From: Bacteroidota bacterium
GTDB lineage: Bacteria; Bacteroidota; Bacteroidia; Sphingobacteriales; Sphingobacteriaceae
DNA length: 46,686 bases
Assembly (NCBI GenBank): GCA_018828585.1
Contig: JAHJVW010000106.1
Location: 1-46,686 of the forward strand
Reading direction: 5' to 3'
In this document: positions 3,162 through 32,335 of the stretch, one piece after another
Layout: each line of letters begins with the position of its first letter
Position numbering within the stretch: position 1 is the first letter of the stretch
Position numbers and translations under genes: made by a program
Notes under the pieces: model-generated
The model's database searches: none
Told to the model about the DNA's origin: nothing
The model's input: the letters and a program-made list of their open reading frames with translations, nothing else

Positions 3162-3165
3162 GAAA

Positions 3166-22855: not shown

Positions 22856-23517
22856 GATAAAATTGCTTGATTTAAGAATATACTAAATGGATAAATTAAT
22901 TGTAAACCTTCAATTACATTTTCAACCGCTTTATCGTCCATCAAATCTACATCTAAAAAAGAATGCGTAACGGTAAAGCTTTTTAGCTTTAATAACTCGA
23001 TATATGGATGATCCGCTTCATATCCTTTTGGAGAGGTTTTCAACTTTTCATTTTGATCCAAATCTGAAAAATAAGATTTAAACTTTCTATCTTCAATGAT
23101 ATTTAAAAAGTCTTTTGTATTGTAATCAATCTCTTGTCTGATGGATTTTAAATGATCGGCTTGAGGCATCCAATAACCACCGGCAACAAAACTATTTCCA
23201 GGCTGGATATGAATATAATAACCTGGCCCATCATTACCCTTTCCTTTGGAAGAAACCCCAATTCCGAAATTATTCTTATAAGGAGATTTATCTTTACTAA
23301 ATCTCACATCCCGATAAATACGCATCACGCATTTCTTAGCCGTTAATTCAGGAGGAATGAATGTATCAATTTTTCGAAATTGGCTTAGAATGGCATCGGC
23401 AAAAGCCTCCACATTTTCCTTTGCGGCTAAATATCTATCTTTATTTTTCTGAAACCAGTCGCGGTCGTTATTTTCAATTAAATCTGTAATAAAAGAAAAT
23501 GTTTCTTTTTTAATCAT
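22852..23517 (-). CDS. DUF2461 family protein (TIGR02453)
   Basis: A 221-residue soluble protein. The frame is open to 23532, but the ATG at 23517 is preferred since it gives the family-like start MIKKETFSFITDLIENNDRD. Conserved segments are WFQKNKDRYLAAKEN, MRIYRDVRFSKDKSPYK and a GYYIHIQPGNSFVAGGYW block. The family is common in Bacteroidota and has no known biochemical role. It overlaps the DUF983 gene by 8 nt upstream and the OmpA gene by 4 nt downstream, so the three are one translational unit. Confidence 0.88.
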   Translation of the reverse strand: MIKKETFSFITDLIENNDRDWFQKNKDRYLAAKENVEAFADAILSQFRKIDTFIPPELTAKKCVMRIYRDVRFSKDKSPYKNNFGIGVSSKGKGNDGPGYYIHIQPGNSFVAGGYWMPQADHLKSIRQEIDYNTKDFLNIIEDRKFKSYFSDLDQNEKLKTSPKGYEADHPYIELLKLKSFTVTHSFLDVDLMDDKAVENVIEGLQLIYPFSIFLNQAILS

Positions 23518-23899
23518 GATCGTAATGTTCAACGTAATGAATCTTGGGCGAAAGCCAATACAATAAAATCACCCTAGAATATCTAAAATTAACAGGCGCT
23601 AACAAAAAACTGAAAAGCAAAATTGTAAAAATGTAAATCCAAGGAGATTCTAATTCACCAGAAAACACATAGGTAGCTATACCAACAGAAACTCCTAAAG
23701 CAACATTTAATGCATATCCAACATACATTGCTGCATAAAAATATCCTGGCTCAACCTCGTAACGTAAACTGCAATGGGGACAAAATTCAAACATTTTTTG
23801 AAAAGAAAAACCGTACATCGTATTTTGGAAAAGATCACCTCTTCTGCAACGTGGGCATTTTGCATGAAGCATTGCTTCTGCTTTAGGTGTTTTAGCCAT
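23510..23899 (-). CDS. DUF983 membrane protein with zinc-ribbon-like cysteines
   Basis: A 129-residue DUF983 protein. Four cysteines in two pairs (CPRC at residues 15-18 and CPHC at 40-43) form a probable zinc ribbon, followed by two transmembrane helices at about 56-75 and 86-105. The motif YEVEPGYFYAAMYVGYA is typical. DUF983 genes also sit near cytochrome oxidase genes in other bacteria, and here the cox run ends only 57 nt upstream. The start codon follows a terminator hairpin by 9-14 nt, which is unusual. Confidence 0.88.
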   Translation of the reverse strand: MAKTPKAEAMLHAKCPRCRRGDLFQNTMYGFSFQKMFEFCPHCSLRYEVEPGYFYAAMYVGYALNVALGVSVGIATYVFSGELESPWIYIFTILLFSFLLAPVNFRYSRVILLYWLSPKIHYVEHYDHD

Positions 23900-23955: not shown

Positions 23956-24231
23956 TTAATTTAAATGAATTTTCTCTTCTCTAATATCTATAGCAACATT
24001 TTTTTTCCTATACTTTTTATACCATAAAAACCCGATACCTGCCATGGCAATGTAAGGTGCTGCTAATAAATACATGATGCCTCCGTTTAAGCCTTTTCCA
24101 GTAGACCCTCCACCTTTGAGGTTAGACTCTACCGTAGCTTGACACATTGCACATTGTGCTTTTGCAGGCGCTGATATAATTGCTGGTGCAATCAAAATAA
24201 ATAATACAATTAGTATCCTAAAAACTCTCAT
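23956..24231 (-). CDS. Small exported CxxC membrane protein in the oxidase cluster
   Basis: A 91-residue protein with a signal peptide (about residues 1-26) directly followed by QCAMCQATVESN, placing a CxxC pair (Cys27, Cys30) at the very start of the mature protein. A glycine-rich linker and one transmembrane helix (about 53-70) lead to a basic cytoplasmic tail. It is the last gene of the ACIII/oxidase run, next to the DUF420 and Sco-like genes. I know no assigned function; a periplasmic copper- or thiol-handling assembly role fits the position but is inference. If the signal is not cleaved, it would have two membrane helices. Confidence 0.75.
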   Translation of the reverse strand: MRVFRILIVLFILIAPAIISAPAKAQCAMCQATVESNLKGGGSTGKGLNGGIMYLLAAPYIAMAGIGFLWYKKYRKKNVAIDIREEKIHLN

Positions 24232-24242
24232 ATTTTAAAAAA

Positions 24243-24815
24243 TTAAAAATTATAATAAGGTGAAATCATCAAATATACTACTACACCTGTTGTTGTAACA
24301 TATAACCAAATTGGAAAACTCCATCGCACCAATTTTTTATGTTTCTCTATTTGCATTTGTAAGCCTCTTTGAAAACTCATTAAAATTAATGGTAAAACTG
24401 AAGCTGCTAAAATGATATGACTAACTAATATAACGTAATAAATGTATCTTAGATTACCCGCAATTGAAATTTCGTTTGCACTCAAAACACCATCGTGATT
24501 TACATCTCCAAACTTGGTTTCAGGAGCGAAGTAATGAAATAAGATGTAGGAAACCAAGAACAATGAGGATAATGAAAATGTAATGATATTTATTCTTTTA
24601 TGAAGTTTTATATTTTTCTGTTTAATAGCCAATAATGAGCTTATTAGTAAAATGGTACAAGTTCCATTAATAATAGCGTTTAGTTTTGGTAAATTATAAA
24701 CGAAAGCAGGAGTAGCTATTGTAACTGGAATAATTTTCCTATTCAGGATTACAACAAAAACAAAAACAAAGATTGATACCCCTGTAATCAATCTAAAAAT
24801 TAACTTATCGTTCAT
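24243..24815 (-). CDS. DUF420 (CtaM-like) membrane protein with EF-hand loop
   Basis: A 190-residue protein with about five transmembrane helices. The C-terminal half shows the DUF420 pattern: an ILVSHIILAASVLPLILM helix, HKKLVRW, and WLYVTTTGVVVYLMISPYY. In Gram-positive bacteria, DUF420 proteins (CtaM/YozB) are needed for heme-copper oxidase activity, so an assembly role is likely. Between two helices lies a complete 12-residue EF-hand loop, DVNHDGVLSANE (residues 104-115), with acidic or Asn ligands at positions 1, 3, 5 and 12 and Gly at 6. It stands 40 nt after the Sco-like gene. Confidence 0.88.
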   Translation of the reverse strand: MNDKLIFRLITGVSIFVFVFVVILNRKIIPVTIATPAFVYNLPKLNAIINGTCTILLISSLLAIKQKNIKLHKRINIITFSLSSLFLVSYILFHYFAPETKFGDVNHDGVLSANEISIAGNLRYIYYVILVSHIILAASVLPLILMSFQRGLQMQIEKHKKLVRWSFPIWLYVTTTGVVVYLMISPYYNF

Positions 24816-24855: not shown

Positions 24856-25554
24856 TTATTTAATTTTTCGTAGCTCTTCGGTAATTAAAACTTTGATCTC
24901 ATCACTCAGCTTACTGATTTCATCAACAGAAGAACTAGCATAATAACCTCTTATTCTATGATCGGCGTCTAACAAAATTAACTTATCACTAAATATGTAT
25001 TCACCTTTATCTTCGGATGATTTTATGGCATTGACAAAAAATTGATTTTTCGCTAGATTCAGTATTTTTGATGAATCCATTGTTACAAAATCCCATTTAC
25101 CAGGTTTAGCTCCTATCATTTTCGCGTAATTTCTAAGAACTGATACGCTATCTTGCGCAGGATCAATAGAAATAGAAATAAACCTGATGATCTTATTTTC
25201 TTTAAATTCTTCAAAAATACTTTTAACGGCTTGGTTAATTGTAGGTGTCAACAGTTGATCTTTTGAATAGAAAAAATTTATTAAAATAAGTTGTTTCTTG
25301 ACCGATCCTAGATTCAAGGAATCTGCATTACTAGTGATAAAATTAACATCCGGAATTTTATGATAAATAGTATCTGGAATTTTTACCCCTTTTTTAGTAT
25401 GAAAAGTTGAAGCAACTATTTTAGGCCCAAAAATAGGAAGTGGCTTATATCTATTTTTACCTTTTGCCTGTAGCATATAATATAAAAATCCCGGTACCGC
25501 TAATATCGTTACCAGGATTAATATTTTAAATATGGGGAATTTGTTCTTACTCAT
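24856..25554 (-). CDS. Sco1/SenC-like protein lacking the copper ligands
   Basis: A 232-residue protein with one N-terminal membrane anchor (about residues 8-28) and a thioredoxin-like domain. The region LILINFFYSKDQLLTPTI aligns with the Sco copper site 'FFxTxCxxxCP', but the two cysteines are Asp99 and Thr103. The usual ligand His corresponds to Asp190 in EYIFSDKLILLD. Segments ISIDPAQDSVSVLRNYAK and KWDFVTMD are otherwise Sco-like. Copper binding by the normal site is therefore not possible. It overlaps the subunit IV gene by 4 nt (ATGA), so it is made together with the oxidase. It may have become a structural or chaperone partner. Confidence 0.82.
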   Translation of the reverse strand: MSKNKFPIFKILILVTILAVPGFLYYMLQAKGKNRYKPLPIFGPKIVASTFHTKKGVKIPDTIYHKIPDVNFITSNADSLNLGSVKKQLILINFFYSKDQLLTPTINQAVKSIFEEFKENKIIRFISISIDPAQDSVSVLRNYAKMIGAKPGKWDFVTMDSSKILNLAKNQFFVNAIKSSEDKGEYIFSDKLILLDADHRIRGYYASSSVDEISKLSDEIKVLITEELRKIK

Positions 25555-25892
25555 AAGTTCATATGAGAATTCAAATAATTTCCCTCAGTTAACATCAGAA
25601 TAATAAAATAGATGATAAATATAAAGGAAACCAGAATACCCACAATGAGTGTATATTTCTCAAATCTTAAGTGCATAAAAAACGCTACAATATAAAATGC
25701 TTTTACTAATGTTAAAATAACATAGGCAAAGTTTTTAATATGTTGAGGCAAAACAGATTCAGGAATGGCTAATGCTAAAATAAATTCTACAATGGTAATA
25801 CCTAAAAGAATAAAAAAAACTTTCCAAATCTTTTTTTTGGTCATTGATTCATGCTGTTCAGCATGTTCTAAATGAGTGTTATCTGACGACAT
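25551..25892 (-). CDS. Cytochrome c oxidase subunit IV
   Basis: A 113-residue membrane protein with three helices (about 22-42, 51-74 and 80-103), matching the small subunit IV of bacterial caa3/aa3 oxidases (COX4_pro type). The conserved helix-2 segment VKAFYIVAFFMHLRFE is clear. The N-terminal 17 residues are polar and carry three His. Such subunits stabilise the oxidase core. The gene follows the second subunit III gene by 19 nt and overlaps the Sco-like gene. Confidence 0.92.
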   Translation of the reverse strand: MSSDNTHLEHAEQHESMTKKKIWKVFFILLGITIVEFILALAIPESVLPQHIKNFAYVILTLVKAFYIVAFFMHLRFEKYTLIVGILVSFIFIIYFIILMLTEGNYLNSHMNL

Positions 25893-29225: not shown

Positions 29226-31121
29226 TTATTTAACTTCTTCTCTTTTATCAACAGATTTATGATCAATATTCCACCTTTCCTGTATTCTTTCTGCTTCTTC
29301 ATTGCCTTCAAAATCATGAGGTAAATTAGAACTCATTGTTTCTGACAATGGCGTGATTTGAGTAATAAAGTCAGCATCATGTCCTGGTTTACTATAATCG
29401 TAAGCCCAACGATAAACAGTAGGAATCTCACCAGGCCAGTTGCCATGAAGACGTTCTACTGGAGTGGTCCACTCTAAAGTATTTGCCTGCCAAGGATTTT
29501 GAGTTGATTTTTCTCCAAAAAATATAGAATAGAAAAAATTAAATAAGAAAGCAACCTGTGCGACAGCACCTAAAATGGCTGCCCAAGTAATAAATACGTT
29601 TACCGATAACCATTTTTGCATAGATTCAAATTCTGTAAAAGCATAGTATCTACGAGGAACTCCATCTAATCCCATAAAGTGCATTGGGAAGAAAACTAGA
29701 TACGCTGAAATAAATGTTAACCAAAAATGTAAGTAGCCTAATTTAGGATTCATCATTCTTCCAAACATTTTAGGGAACCAATGATAGATACCTGCTAACA
29801 TCCCAAATATAGCTGCTGAACCCATCACCAAGTGAAAGTGAGCTACTACGAAATAGGTGTCATGCAAATTAATGTCTAAAGCAGCATTTCCCAACCAAAT
29901 ACCGGTTAAACCACCAGAAATAAAGAAAGAAACCAAACCTATTGCAAATAACATGGCAGGTGTAAATCTGATATTACCTCTCCATAGTGTTGCTAACCAA
30001 TTAAAGGTTTTAACTGCTGAAGGTACGGCAATGATTAAGGTGGTAATCATGAATACCCCACCAAGGAATGGATTCATCCCCGTGACAAACATGTGATGCC
30101 CCCAAACAACGAACGAAAGTACCGTTATACCAATTAAAGAATAAACCATGGCATGATACCCAAAAATTGGTTTTCTTGAATTTACAGACATTACTTCAGA
30201 AGCAATACCCATTGCTGGCATAATTACAATATAAACTTCTGGGTGACCTAAGAACCAAAATAAATGTTCCCACAAAATAGGGCTACCTCCTTCATTTGCT
30301 AAAGCTTGACCTCCGATGTATATGTCGGAAAGGTAAAATGATGTTCCAAAACTACGATCGAAAATTAAAAGAACTATTCCTGCTACCAAAACTGGGAAAG
30401 ATAAAATACCTAATATGGCAGTTAAAAAGAAAGCCCAAATTGTCAAAGGCATTTTCCATAAATCCATACCTTTTGTACGCATGTTTAATATGGTTGAAAC
30501 ATAATTGATACCTCCCATTAATGATGAGGCAACAAATAAAACCATGGAAACTAACCAAAGCGTCATTCCCAATCCAGAACCTGGCATTGCTTTAGGCAAA
30601 GCAGATAATGGGGGATAAATGGTCCATCCTGCTCCTGCAGGTCCTGATTCGATAAAGAACGTAGATAACATAATCGCACTAGCAGTAAAAAAGAACCAGT
30701 ATGATAACATGTTCATAAACGGAGATGCCATATCTCTAGCACCTAACTGTAATGGTATTAAAAGGTTAGAAAAAGTTCCACTAAGGCCAGCAGTTAATAC
30801 AAAGAATACCATAATGGTACCATGTATCGTAACTAAAGACAAATAGAAGTTTGGATCTAATCTACCTTCTGGAGCAAATTTACCCAACAAAACTTCTAAT
30901 AGAGGGAAGCTTTTATCAGGATAAGCTAATTGAATTCTAAATAGAATCGATAAACCCATAGCAATTACGCCCATGATAATTCCCGTAATTAGGAATTGTT
31001 TAGCTATCATTTTATGATCTTGACTAAATACGTATTTAGTTAAGAAAGTTTCTTTATGATGCTCGTGAGAGTGATCATCATGATGTACTGCACTTGAGTT
31101 AGGAATTGCAATTGTTGACAT
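29226..31121 (-). CDS. ctaD: Cytochrome c oxidase subunit I (aa3 type)
   Basis: A 631-residue catalytic subunit that reduces oxygen and pumps protons. Ligands seen: His100 (heme a), His293 of HPEVY with Tyr297 (CuB and the cross-linked Tyr), His342-His343 (CuB), His428 (heme a3) and His430 (heme a). Glu295 in HPEVY marks the A1-type D-channel. The K-channel Lys position appears to be Thr387 (RFTPAML). The N-terminus has a His-rich cytoplasmic stretch before helix 1, and the C-terminus has a polar tail of about 90 residues. It follows CoxII by 20 nt. Confidence 0.97.
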   Translation of the reverse strand: MSTIAIPNSSAVHHDDHSHEHHKETFLTKYVFSQDHKMIAKQFLITGIIMGVIAMGLSILFRIQLAYPDKSFPLLEVLLGKFAPEGRLDPNFYLSLVTIHGTIMVFFVLTAGLSGTFSNLLIPLQLGARDMASPFMNMLSYWFFFTASAIMLSTFFIESGPAGAGWTIYPPLSALPKAMPGSGLGMTLWLVSMVLFVASSLMGGINYVSTILNMRTKGMDLWKMPLTIWAFFLTAILGILSFPVLVAGIVLLIFDRSFGTSFYLSDIYIGGQALANEGGSPILWEHLFWFLGHPEVYIVIMPAMGIASEVMSVNSRKPIFGYHAMVYSLIGITVLSFVVWGHHMFVTGMNPFLGGVFMITTLIIAVPSAVKTFNWLATLWRGNIRFTPAMLFAIGLVSFFISGGLTGIWLGNAALDINLHDTYFVVAHFHLVMGSAAIFGMLAGIYHWFPKMFGRMMNPKLGYLHFWLTFISAYLVFFPMHFMGLDGVPRRYYAFTEFESMQKWLSVNVFITWAAILGAVAQVAFLFNFFYSIFFGEKSTQNPWQANTLEWTTPVERLHGNWPGEIPTVYRWAYDYSKPGHDADFITQITPLSETMSSNLPHDFEGNEEAERIQERWNIDHKSVDKREEVK

Positions 31122-31141: not shown

Positions 31142-32335
31142 TTAATTGTTTAATGCAATTTTATTTTCTTTACTAGCTACATTTTCTTTCATAGCTAATT
31201 GATATTCTTTCTTCATATCGTCTGTAACGATAGGTTTTTGTTCTTTTACCCATTTGTCGTACTCTCTTTGAGTAACAACCCTTACTGCGAACTGCATATT
31301 GTAGTGTTGAGCTCCACAAATTTTGGCACAATATAATCGATATTTAAAATTAGGGTCGTTTGTTTTGACTTTCATTTCGGCAGTAGTTATTCTAGGTGTA
31401 AATTGAAAGAAAGTGGACATCCCTGGAACACAATTCATTTGTACTCTAAAATGAGGCATGTAAAAACTGTGCAAAACATCTTGAGAAGTTAACGTAAATC
31501 TAACTGATTTGTTTACTGGTAAAACAATTTCTGTGACCTTTAAATCATCATAGTTATGCTTGTCTGCAAGATCTAATCCTAAACTATTCAAGCCTCCTAA
31601 ACTACCTATTAACTTATAGTTTTTACGCCCACTCACATTATCCTTACCTGAGTATCTTACTTCCCATGCAAACTGATGAGCTGTTACATCAACTTGTAAA
31701 GCACTCTTCATTTGGTCAGACGAAATATTTGTTATTCCTCTCCAAGTAAAGAAACCCATTAATACCAATACAGTTAAAGCAATAGCTGGAATAACGGTCC
31801 AATACTTCTCAAGGGTGTTGTTATGAGGATAATAGTAAGCTTTACGTTTAGCCTTGTAATTGTATTTGTAAGCGAAAAGAAAAAGTAAAATATGAGTGAT
31901 AACGAATACGATAGTTGTGATAACTAAGGTAATTCTAAACATGGAATCGATTTTTAAACCATGTTCTGAAGCAGCTTCAGGTAGAATTTGAGCTCCTTGA
32001 ACGGTATAGCACCAATATGCACCATATAATCCAACAACTAAAGTCACTGCAAATAAAATACCATTCACTTTATTCCAAGCAATACCTTCTTTTTTTCCTT
32101 GAATTTGTTTGGTCAATTCATAAACATGCAAAACCTTACCAATGATGCCAATAACCACACAAATTAGCAGGAACAATATCAAATAGTATCCAACAGTTTT
32201 ACCTAAACCATCTGTTTTACTTACTGTATCAGTGGCAACACCCGCTGCTTGAGCCATTACTTGTTGGAAAGATAATCCGACAATTCCTGTTAAGGCAAGC
32301 AATGATTTTAAATTCAAATATCTCTTAATATCCAT
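31142..32335 (-). CDS. ctaC: Cytochrome c oxidase subunit II with CuA site
   Basis: A 397-residue electron-entry subunit. CuA ligands are His289 (LHSFYMP), Cys336, Cys340, His344 and Met347 (CAKICGAQHYNM). The central residue of the CxExC motif is Lys338 instead of Glu. The protein begins with a probable signal peptide, then extra helices at about 49-66 and 90-112 before the usual two-helix hairpin (about 130-152 and 175-197), so it is longer than classic CoxII. There is no fused cytochrome c domain, which fits electron delivery by the ACIII cytochromes next door. It follows actF by 23 nt. Confidence 0.95.
   Translation of the reverse strand: MDIKRYLNLKSLLALTGIVGLSFQQVMAQAAGVATDTVSKTDGLGKTVGYYLILFLLICVVIGIIGKVLHVYELTKQIQGKKEGIAWNKVNGILFAVTLVVGLYGAYWCYTVQGAQILPEAASEHGLKIDSMFRITLVITTIVFVITHILLFLFAYKYNYKAKRKAYYYPHNNTLEKYWTVIPAIALTVLVLMGFFTWRGITNISSDQMKSALQVDVTAHQFAWEVRYSGKDNVSGRKNYKLIGSLGGLNSLGLDLADKHNYDDLKVTEIVLPVNKSVRFTLTSQDVLHSFYMPHFRVQMNCVPGMSTFFQFTPRITTAEMKVKTNDPNFKYRLYCAKICGAQHYNMQFAVRVVTQREYDKWVKEQKPIVTDDMKKEYQLAMKENVASKENKIALNN

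Follow-up and report, generated by a model that had tools for sequence, protein, structure and literature searches.

What does a Sco-family gene do in a cytochrome oxidase operon once its protein has lost the residues that would bind copper? The question is raised by a gene at 24856–25554 (minus strand) of the window, the 46,686-nt stretch of a Sphingobacteriaceae contig analysed here. Its 232-codon frame is intact and its ATG overlaps the stop codon of the COX4 gene (ATGA), in agreement with the initial annotation of a Sco-like gene coupled to that of CoxIV. The product, which we call pseudo-Sco, matches the Pfam family SCO1-SenC (PF02630; E 1.4e-9, 38.4 bits against a cut-off of 22.8) and, by phmmer, Bacillus Sco1 (1on4, E 1.1e-8); its best PDB matches are Sco proteins, and an NCBIfam search with the protein gave no match. 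Measured against the traits of PF02630 members, it has the sequence and fold similarity and the membrane anchor, and lacks both the CxxxC motif and the histidine.

In HMMER and ortholog alignments, the columns of the CxxxC cysteines of Bacillus Sco (BsSco) and of 58 ligand-complete orthologs are occupied by Asp99 (codon 25258–25260, minus strand) and Thr103 (25246–25248, minus strand), as had been noted initially. The histidine had been assigned to Asp190 (24985–24987, minus strand), an assignment we rejected: the alignments place the His column two residues earlier, at Phe188 (24991–24993, minus strand), where ‘YIFSDK’ stands against ‘FIHSPM/FIHSEK’ in orthologs and ‘QVIHQS’ in BsSco, and residue 190 is not conserved (P, S, E or D in most copies), CxxxC-bearing orthologs included. 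A substitute CxxxC elsewhere in the protein would have undone the argument, and there is none, as pseudo-Sco has 0 cysteines; its histidines are residues 52, 65 and 199. Sequencing error is very unlikely, since an ortholog that is 95% identical (genome G138) has the same D/T/F combination and 58 of 149 family orthologs are ligand-free. With neither CxxxC nor His, pseudo-Sco is expected to carry out no copper or disulfide chemistry, and the ligand loss argues against its delivering copper to CuA.

We surveyed 151 Sphingobacteriaceae genomes and obtained 149 operonic orthologs, 141 directly and 8 through CoxC; the two others were unreadable at this place (the G143 contig stops within COX4, and G079, 60% complete, gave no CoxC match). 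At columns 99, 103 and 188, all three ligands are present in 58 orthologs and none in another 58, with at least one missing in 91. The 33 partial states comprise both cysteines without His (22), His without either Cys (8), the first Cys with His (2) and the second Cys only (1). Replacements are diverse: D/T/F, N/x/F, S/V/H, N/N/V and others in the genus of the window, mostly D/S/I in group g17, and G/V/Y, S/I/Y, A/S/F and others in g14. Members of g3 and g15 keep CxxxC and have Tyr or Phe (once Leu) in place of His, with one genome there (G150) having lost all three. Absence of the operonic gene from g5, g8 and g18 was considered and ruled out, as COX4 and DUF420 flank a diverged, ligand-deficient Sco gene in these 8 further genomes. 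Separately, four operonic Scos have CxxC, a thioredoxin-like spacing, and not CxxxC (L065 in G066, L080 in G085, L129 in G076 and L140 in G048); the three from g20 keep His and that of G048 (g7) has Thr there.

This census bears on whether pseudo-Sco could still handle metal through other residues. Asp99 and Ser103 are constant in the 18 g17 copies, and the 8 of 149 copies that retain His without either Cys would also suit such a function. The three positions vary, however, both between and within genera, and 51 of the 58 fully ligand-less copies have no cysteine at all, so that we regard continued metal handling as extremely unlikely.

The CxxxC-less copies do not form a single clade. A tree of 158 rows, from which the ligand columns had been left out, requires at least seven changes in CxxxC and at least eight in His; it was built quickly, and it drew warnings about long rows (OWN_L001, G008, G037) and about g5 joining g8. 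A more careful tree of 56 rows, picked by hand with the longest branches left out, gives five changes for CxxxC and four for His, and the best tree that holds its 25 CxxxC-less rows together is rejected (p-AU 1.8e-7). Partial states are found in both directions. Because the paralogs examined are intact, as is the clade of g11, g23 and g24 near the root, the direction of change was probably loss, not gain.

Repeated loss could mean that the gene is a functionless relic, kept by translational coupling or by its polar position, and the great divergence of the operonic copies in g5 and g8 would fit this explanation. Evidence for selection comes from close pairs of genomes. Among CxxxC-less pairs dN/dS ranges from 0.030 to 0.152 (12 of 15 gave a value and four rest on dS above 1.4; the pairs were picked by hand and their genomes overlap, so they are not independent), compared with 0.031–0.112 for intact pairs (9 of 10 gave a value) and 0.058–0.074 for three His-less pairs. 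Relative site rates, calculated for 60 CxxxC-less and 58 intact rows, show where constraint has been kept and where it has been relaxed. Rates are 0.38 in CxxxC-less against 0.52 in intact rows for the anchor and juxtamembrane region, 0.44 against 0.78 for residues 47–66, and 0.44 against 0.56 for the C-terminal region (medians 0.39 and 0.35). The thioredoxin core evolves faster when ligand-less (1.44 against 1.14), and the three metal positions, which at 0.10 are among the slowest 5% in intact rows, reach 0.82 in CxxxC-less ones, a rate in the middle of the range for the protein.

The faster core and the recurrent disappearance of the ligands are what a relic might display, yet dN/dS lies well below 1, anchor and C-terminal residues are invariant across several genera, and the frames are open without internal stops in all 141 operonic matches and the 8 others; a functionless gene is accordingly very unlikely. 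The ligand-less copies are neither sequencing errors nor products of simple decay, and the earlier suggestion of ligand loss without decay holds. The conservation of the N- and C-termini is also found in intact orthologs and for that reason is by itself no proof of a new role. At the level of sequence comparison, the data demonstrate a Sco-family protein of predicted thioredoxin fold, lacking ligands and cysteines, that is retained under selection beside an intact CuA subunit.

The conserved parts are concentrated at the two ends of the protein. A membrane helix is predicted at residues 8–30 (25465–25533, minus strand) and a C-terminal helix, with conserved DEIK and E..R, at residues 210–231 (24862–24927, minus strand), in both cases from a low-confidence structural model together with conservation. 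The AlphaFold model, made from an alignment of five sequences, is weak (mean pLDDT 60.8), and at residues 160–188 too weak for the loop bearing Phe188 to be interpreted; a Foldseek search with it nonetheless has BsSco 1xzo as its top match (E 8.6e-11). In 66 CxxxC-less copies, P21, Y36, L39, G43, D61, D196, R202, G203, Y205 and E226 are conserved at 100%, and N34, K45, H65, D218, E219 and R229 at 97–98%. Pro21, within the membrane helix, is invariant in operonic Scos, ligand-bearing and ligand-less alike. Together with N34 and Y36 it marks the operonic type, the paralogs having gaps or other residues at these positions.

COX4 (25551–25892, minus strand; PF03626) lies upstream and overlaps pseudo-Sco, and a DUF420 membrane protein (24243–24815, minus strand; PF04238, E 5.6e-42) is encoded next downstream. 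Across the 141 operons, COX4 and CoxC stand directly upstream of the Sco gene in every case and DUF420 lies at most 1.1 kb downstream in 137; two of the other four are cut by the contig end (G104 and G070) and two show none (G067 and G008). Further upstream in the window are CoxA (29226–31121, minus strand) and CoxB (31142–32335, minus strand), the latter with an intact CuA motif (CAKICGAQHYNM; first His in QDVLHSFYMP). Of the 141 operons, 130 reach CoxB; all of these have CxxxCGxxHxxM and 129 have the first CuA His, the odd one (G080) being on a contig that begins shortly before the CoxB motif. CoxA is one of three heme-copper oxidase subunits I in the genome, and the other two read as cbb3-like, namely a ccoNO fusion (contig C75) and the first of two neighbouring genes, ccoN-like and ccoO-like (contig C55).

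As described in the excerpts of PMC9145763 available to us, CtaM is a DUF420 oxidase-assembly protein required for aa3 activity in Staphylococcus aureus and for that of aa3 and caa3 in Bacillus subtilis, and we infer that pseudo-Sco and its CtaM-like DUF420 neighbour may work together. Beyond DUF420, a small membrane protein with a CxxC motif is encoded at 23956–24231 (minus strand), and it had been suggested that this neighbour could be part of what makes up for the lost ligands. We rejected this idea on finding the gene with intact and ligand-less Sco alike. Among operons with intact Sco it occurs in 42 of the 55 that were readable, another three being truncated; among fully ligand-less ones the figure is 20 of 52, which ties it in no way to the loss. 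After the CxxC protein, the frame at 23510–23899 is weakly DUF983-like (19.4 bits, below the cut-off of 22.6) and has two CxxC pairs; a similar frame appears in many family operons. Another small CxxC membrane protein (CEACNQNQ) follows the cbb3-like oxidase gene pair on C55 of the same genome (L182, 87–377), and by eye its layout resembles that of the protein at 23956–24231, so that both may represent a common small oxidase partner.

The constant place of the Sco gene would also suit a protein that stays in the Bacteroidota aa3 oxidase as a structural subunit, or in the supercomplex of this oxidase with alternative complex III, as opposed to a transient assembly factor. All 149 family genomes that could be read have the gene in this operon, in the window its ATG overlaps the COX4 stop codon, and the invariant proline of the membrane helix and the conserved juxtamembrane and C-terminal stretches would likewise fit a subunit. 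No solved complex supports a subunit, however: a PDB search with COX4 of this operon found no relative at E 0.01 (one with the DUF420 protein likewise found none), the Sco matches are themselves Sco proteins, and the text on the Flavobacterium johnsoniae supercomplex (PMC8552683) has no word starting with Sco. On balance we consider a permanent subunit unlikely.

If pseudo-Sco does not bring copper, a different protein may. Searching the same genome with PF02630 turned up two more Scos that have both the CxxxC motif and the histidine, L001 (contig C77) and L002 (C75), along with weaker matches to two other thioredoxin-like proteins on C53, so the second, normal Sco that had been anticipated does exist. 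Both L001 and L002 start, by our own reading, with lipobox-like signal stretches. Searches of this genome for PCuAC and Cox11 gave no match. With the CuA motif of CoxB intact and canonical Scos at hand, the alternative initially raised, that CuA is built in another way, is probably not needed. All 91 ligand-deficient Sphingobacteriaceae genomes (61 lacking one or both cysteines, that is 60 and the window's own genome, 22 His-less and 8 of g5, g8 and g18) also have a Sco with C, C and H, as do 12 of 12 ligand-deficient genomes from other families. These paralogs come from searches with L002, itself canonical, which partly selects for the intact state, though not for presence in every genome, and their copper role is assumed from the motif.

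The two types of Sco also appear to differ in how they are anchored, as the lipobox pattern is found in 0 of 149 operonic copies as against 49 of 60 paralogs, and the other 11 paralogs have a Cys after a signal-like stretch. Only one Sco match (with both queries) was obtained in 9 of 151 genomes. Two of these, G079 and G143, could not be read at the operonic place; the remaining seven (G010, G023, G024, G043, G060, G070 and G080) keep C, C and H in the operonic Sco, but form one clade and so provide no independent test. We also asked whether the canonical paralog belongs to a cbb3 cluster and dropped the idea, as there was no ccoNO match in stretches of up to 4 kb on each side of the paralog in 60 other genomes; in the window's own genome, L002 lies about 8 kb beyond the ccoNO gene on C75. 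By eye, L001 has a YHYH-motif gene and a MORN-like gene as neighbours, and the 3.4 kb read there shows no oxidase gene.

The same pattern extends beyond the family. From a class sample of 60 genomes (two of the family) we took the 30 loci that best matched CoxC. Outside the family lie 28 of these, and 25 of the 28 have a gene at the Sco place: 13 have all ligands and 12, from 11 families, are ligand-deficient. The flanks of L274 and L286 showed no gene at the Sco place, and L279 stops too soon to be read there. Nine of the 12 have no ligand, L263 and L288 have both cysteines without His, and L268 has the first Cys only. Sco similarity is above the Pfam cut-off for L265, L266, L268 and L290 and was found by the L002 search for L263, L281 and L282; L288 is below the Sco cut-off and scores better as AhpC-TSA, and for L264, L269, L272 and L273 the assignment comes from place and end motifs alone. 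In L264 (G178) and L273 (G205), from two other families, the ligand-less gene at the Sco place is followed directly by a canonical lipoprotein-type Sco. At L289 (G197), after position 3163, a lipoprotein-like gene follows Sco by eye, in place of DUF420.

From the conservation of the protein and its place in the operon, we lean, with somewhat more confidence than doubt, towards a copper-independent role for the membrane-anchored pseudo-Sco in oxidase assembly, the copper probably being provided by lipoprotein-type Scos. The copper-free assembly or structural partner put forward in the initial annotation fits the conservation data, whereas the partnership as such remains inferred. The transmembrane helix, the juxtamembrane stretch (N34, Y36, L39, G43, K45) and the C-terminal helix would dock on oxidase subunits (CoxB, COX4) or on the DUF420/CtaM protein; the thioredoxin-like domain would hold or position CoxB, and one of the canonical lipoprotein Scos would load CuA. 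Once the paralog had taken over copper loading, pseudo-Sco could have tolerated the loss of its ligands. More tentatively, it is possible that Bacteroidota have a two-part Sco system, in which a copper-free membrane protein, either a docking platform or a permanent aa3 subunit, is paired with a lipoprotein Sco that brings the copper, and that the ancestral job of the operonic Sco was non-metal; if so, it would follow that the ligands were lost repeatedly while the gene was kept.

The operonic genes form a natural bacterial series (intact, Cys-only, His-only and ligand-free), and each ligand-deficient genome examined also has a canonical paralog. This makes a non-metal Sco role directly testable and renders the copper-chaperone label for such genes doubtful in many Bacteroidota genomes. 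Among the matches listed in our literature search on ligand-free or bacterial Sco proteins and the ACIII-oxidase operon, the bacterial case is not described, though an earlier mention is possible.

The closest precedent, by analogy, is HCC2 of the plant Arabidopsis. The excerpts available of PMC3971200, PMC6696091 and PMC6307045 present it as a Sco-family protein with a membrane-anchored thioredoxin-like domain that has lost both Cys and His while the canonical paralog HCC1 is kept. Compared by description, pseudo-Sco is HCC2-like in having lost all three ligands beside a canonical paralog. The role of HCC2 is unsettled in these excerpts, and why a ligand-less Sco still acts is named an open question in that of PMC6696091. 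The same three excerpts describe HCC2 as missing these three residues, dispensable for COX, connected with the UV-B response and able to rescue a yeast sco2 sod1 strain in part, which would allow pseudo-Sco a copper-independent role in stress or redox sensing, unrelated to the building of this oxidase. Such a role is improbable in our judgement, given that the gene follows COX4 in the cox operon in all 149 family genomes read and that pseudo-Sco has no cysteine for thiol redox chemistry. HCC2 itself differs in being mitochondrial and in still having other cysteines (excerpt of PMC6307045), while pseudo-Sco is set apart by its recurrent losses, its partial states, its place in an oxidase operon and the absence of cysteine from most ligand-free copies. 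As the losses recurred inside Sphingobacteriaceae, a ligand-free ancestor shared with HCC2 is unnecessary. With BsSco/YpmQ and the SCO1-SenC proteins (PF02630; 1xzo, 1on4), pseudo-Sco has in common similarity in fold and sequence, a single membrane anchor and the link to cytochrome oxidase, but not the CxxxC or the His. Yeast Sco1/Sco2 and human SCO1/SCO2, as presented in the excerpts of PMC6307045 and PMC3971200, are likewise two paralogs with different roles in one cell, except that they keep the copper motif.
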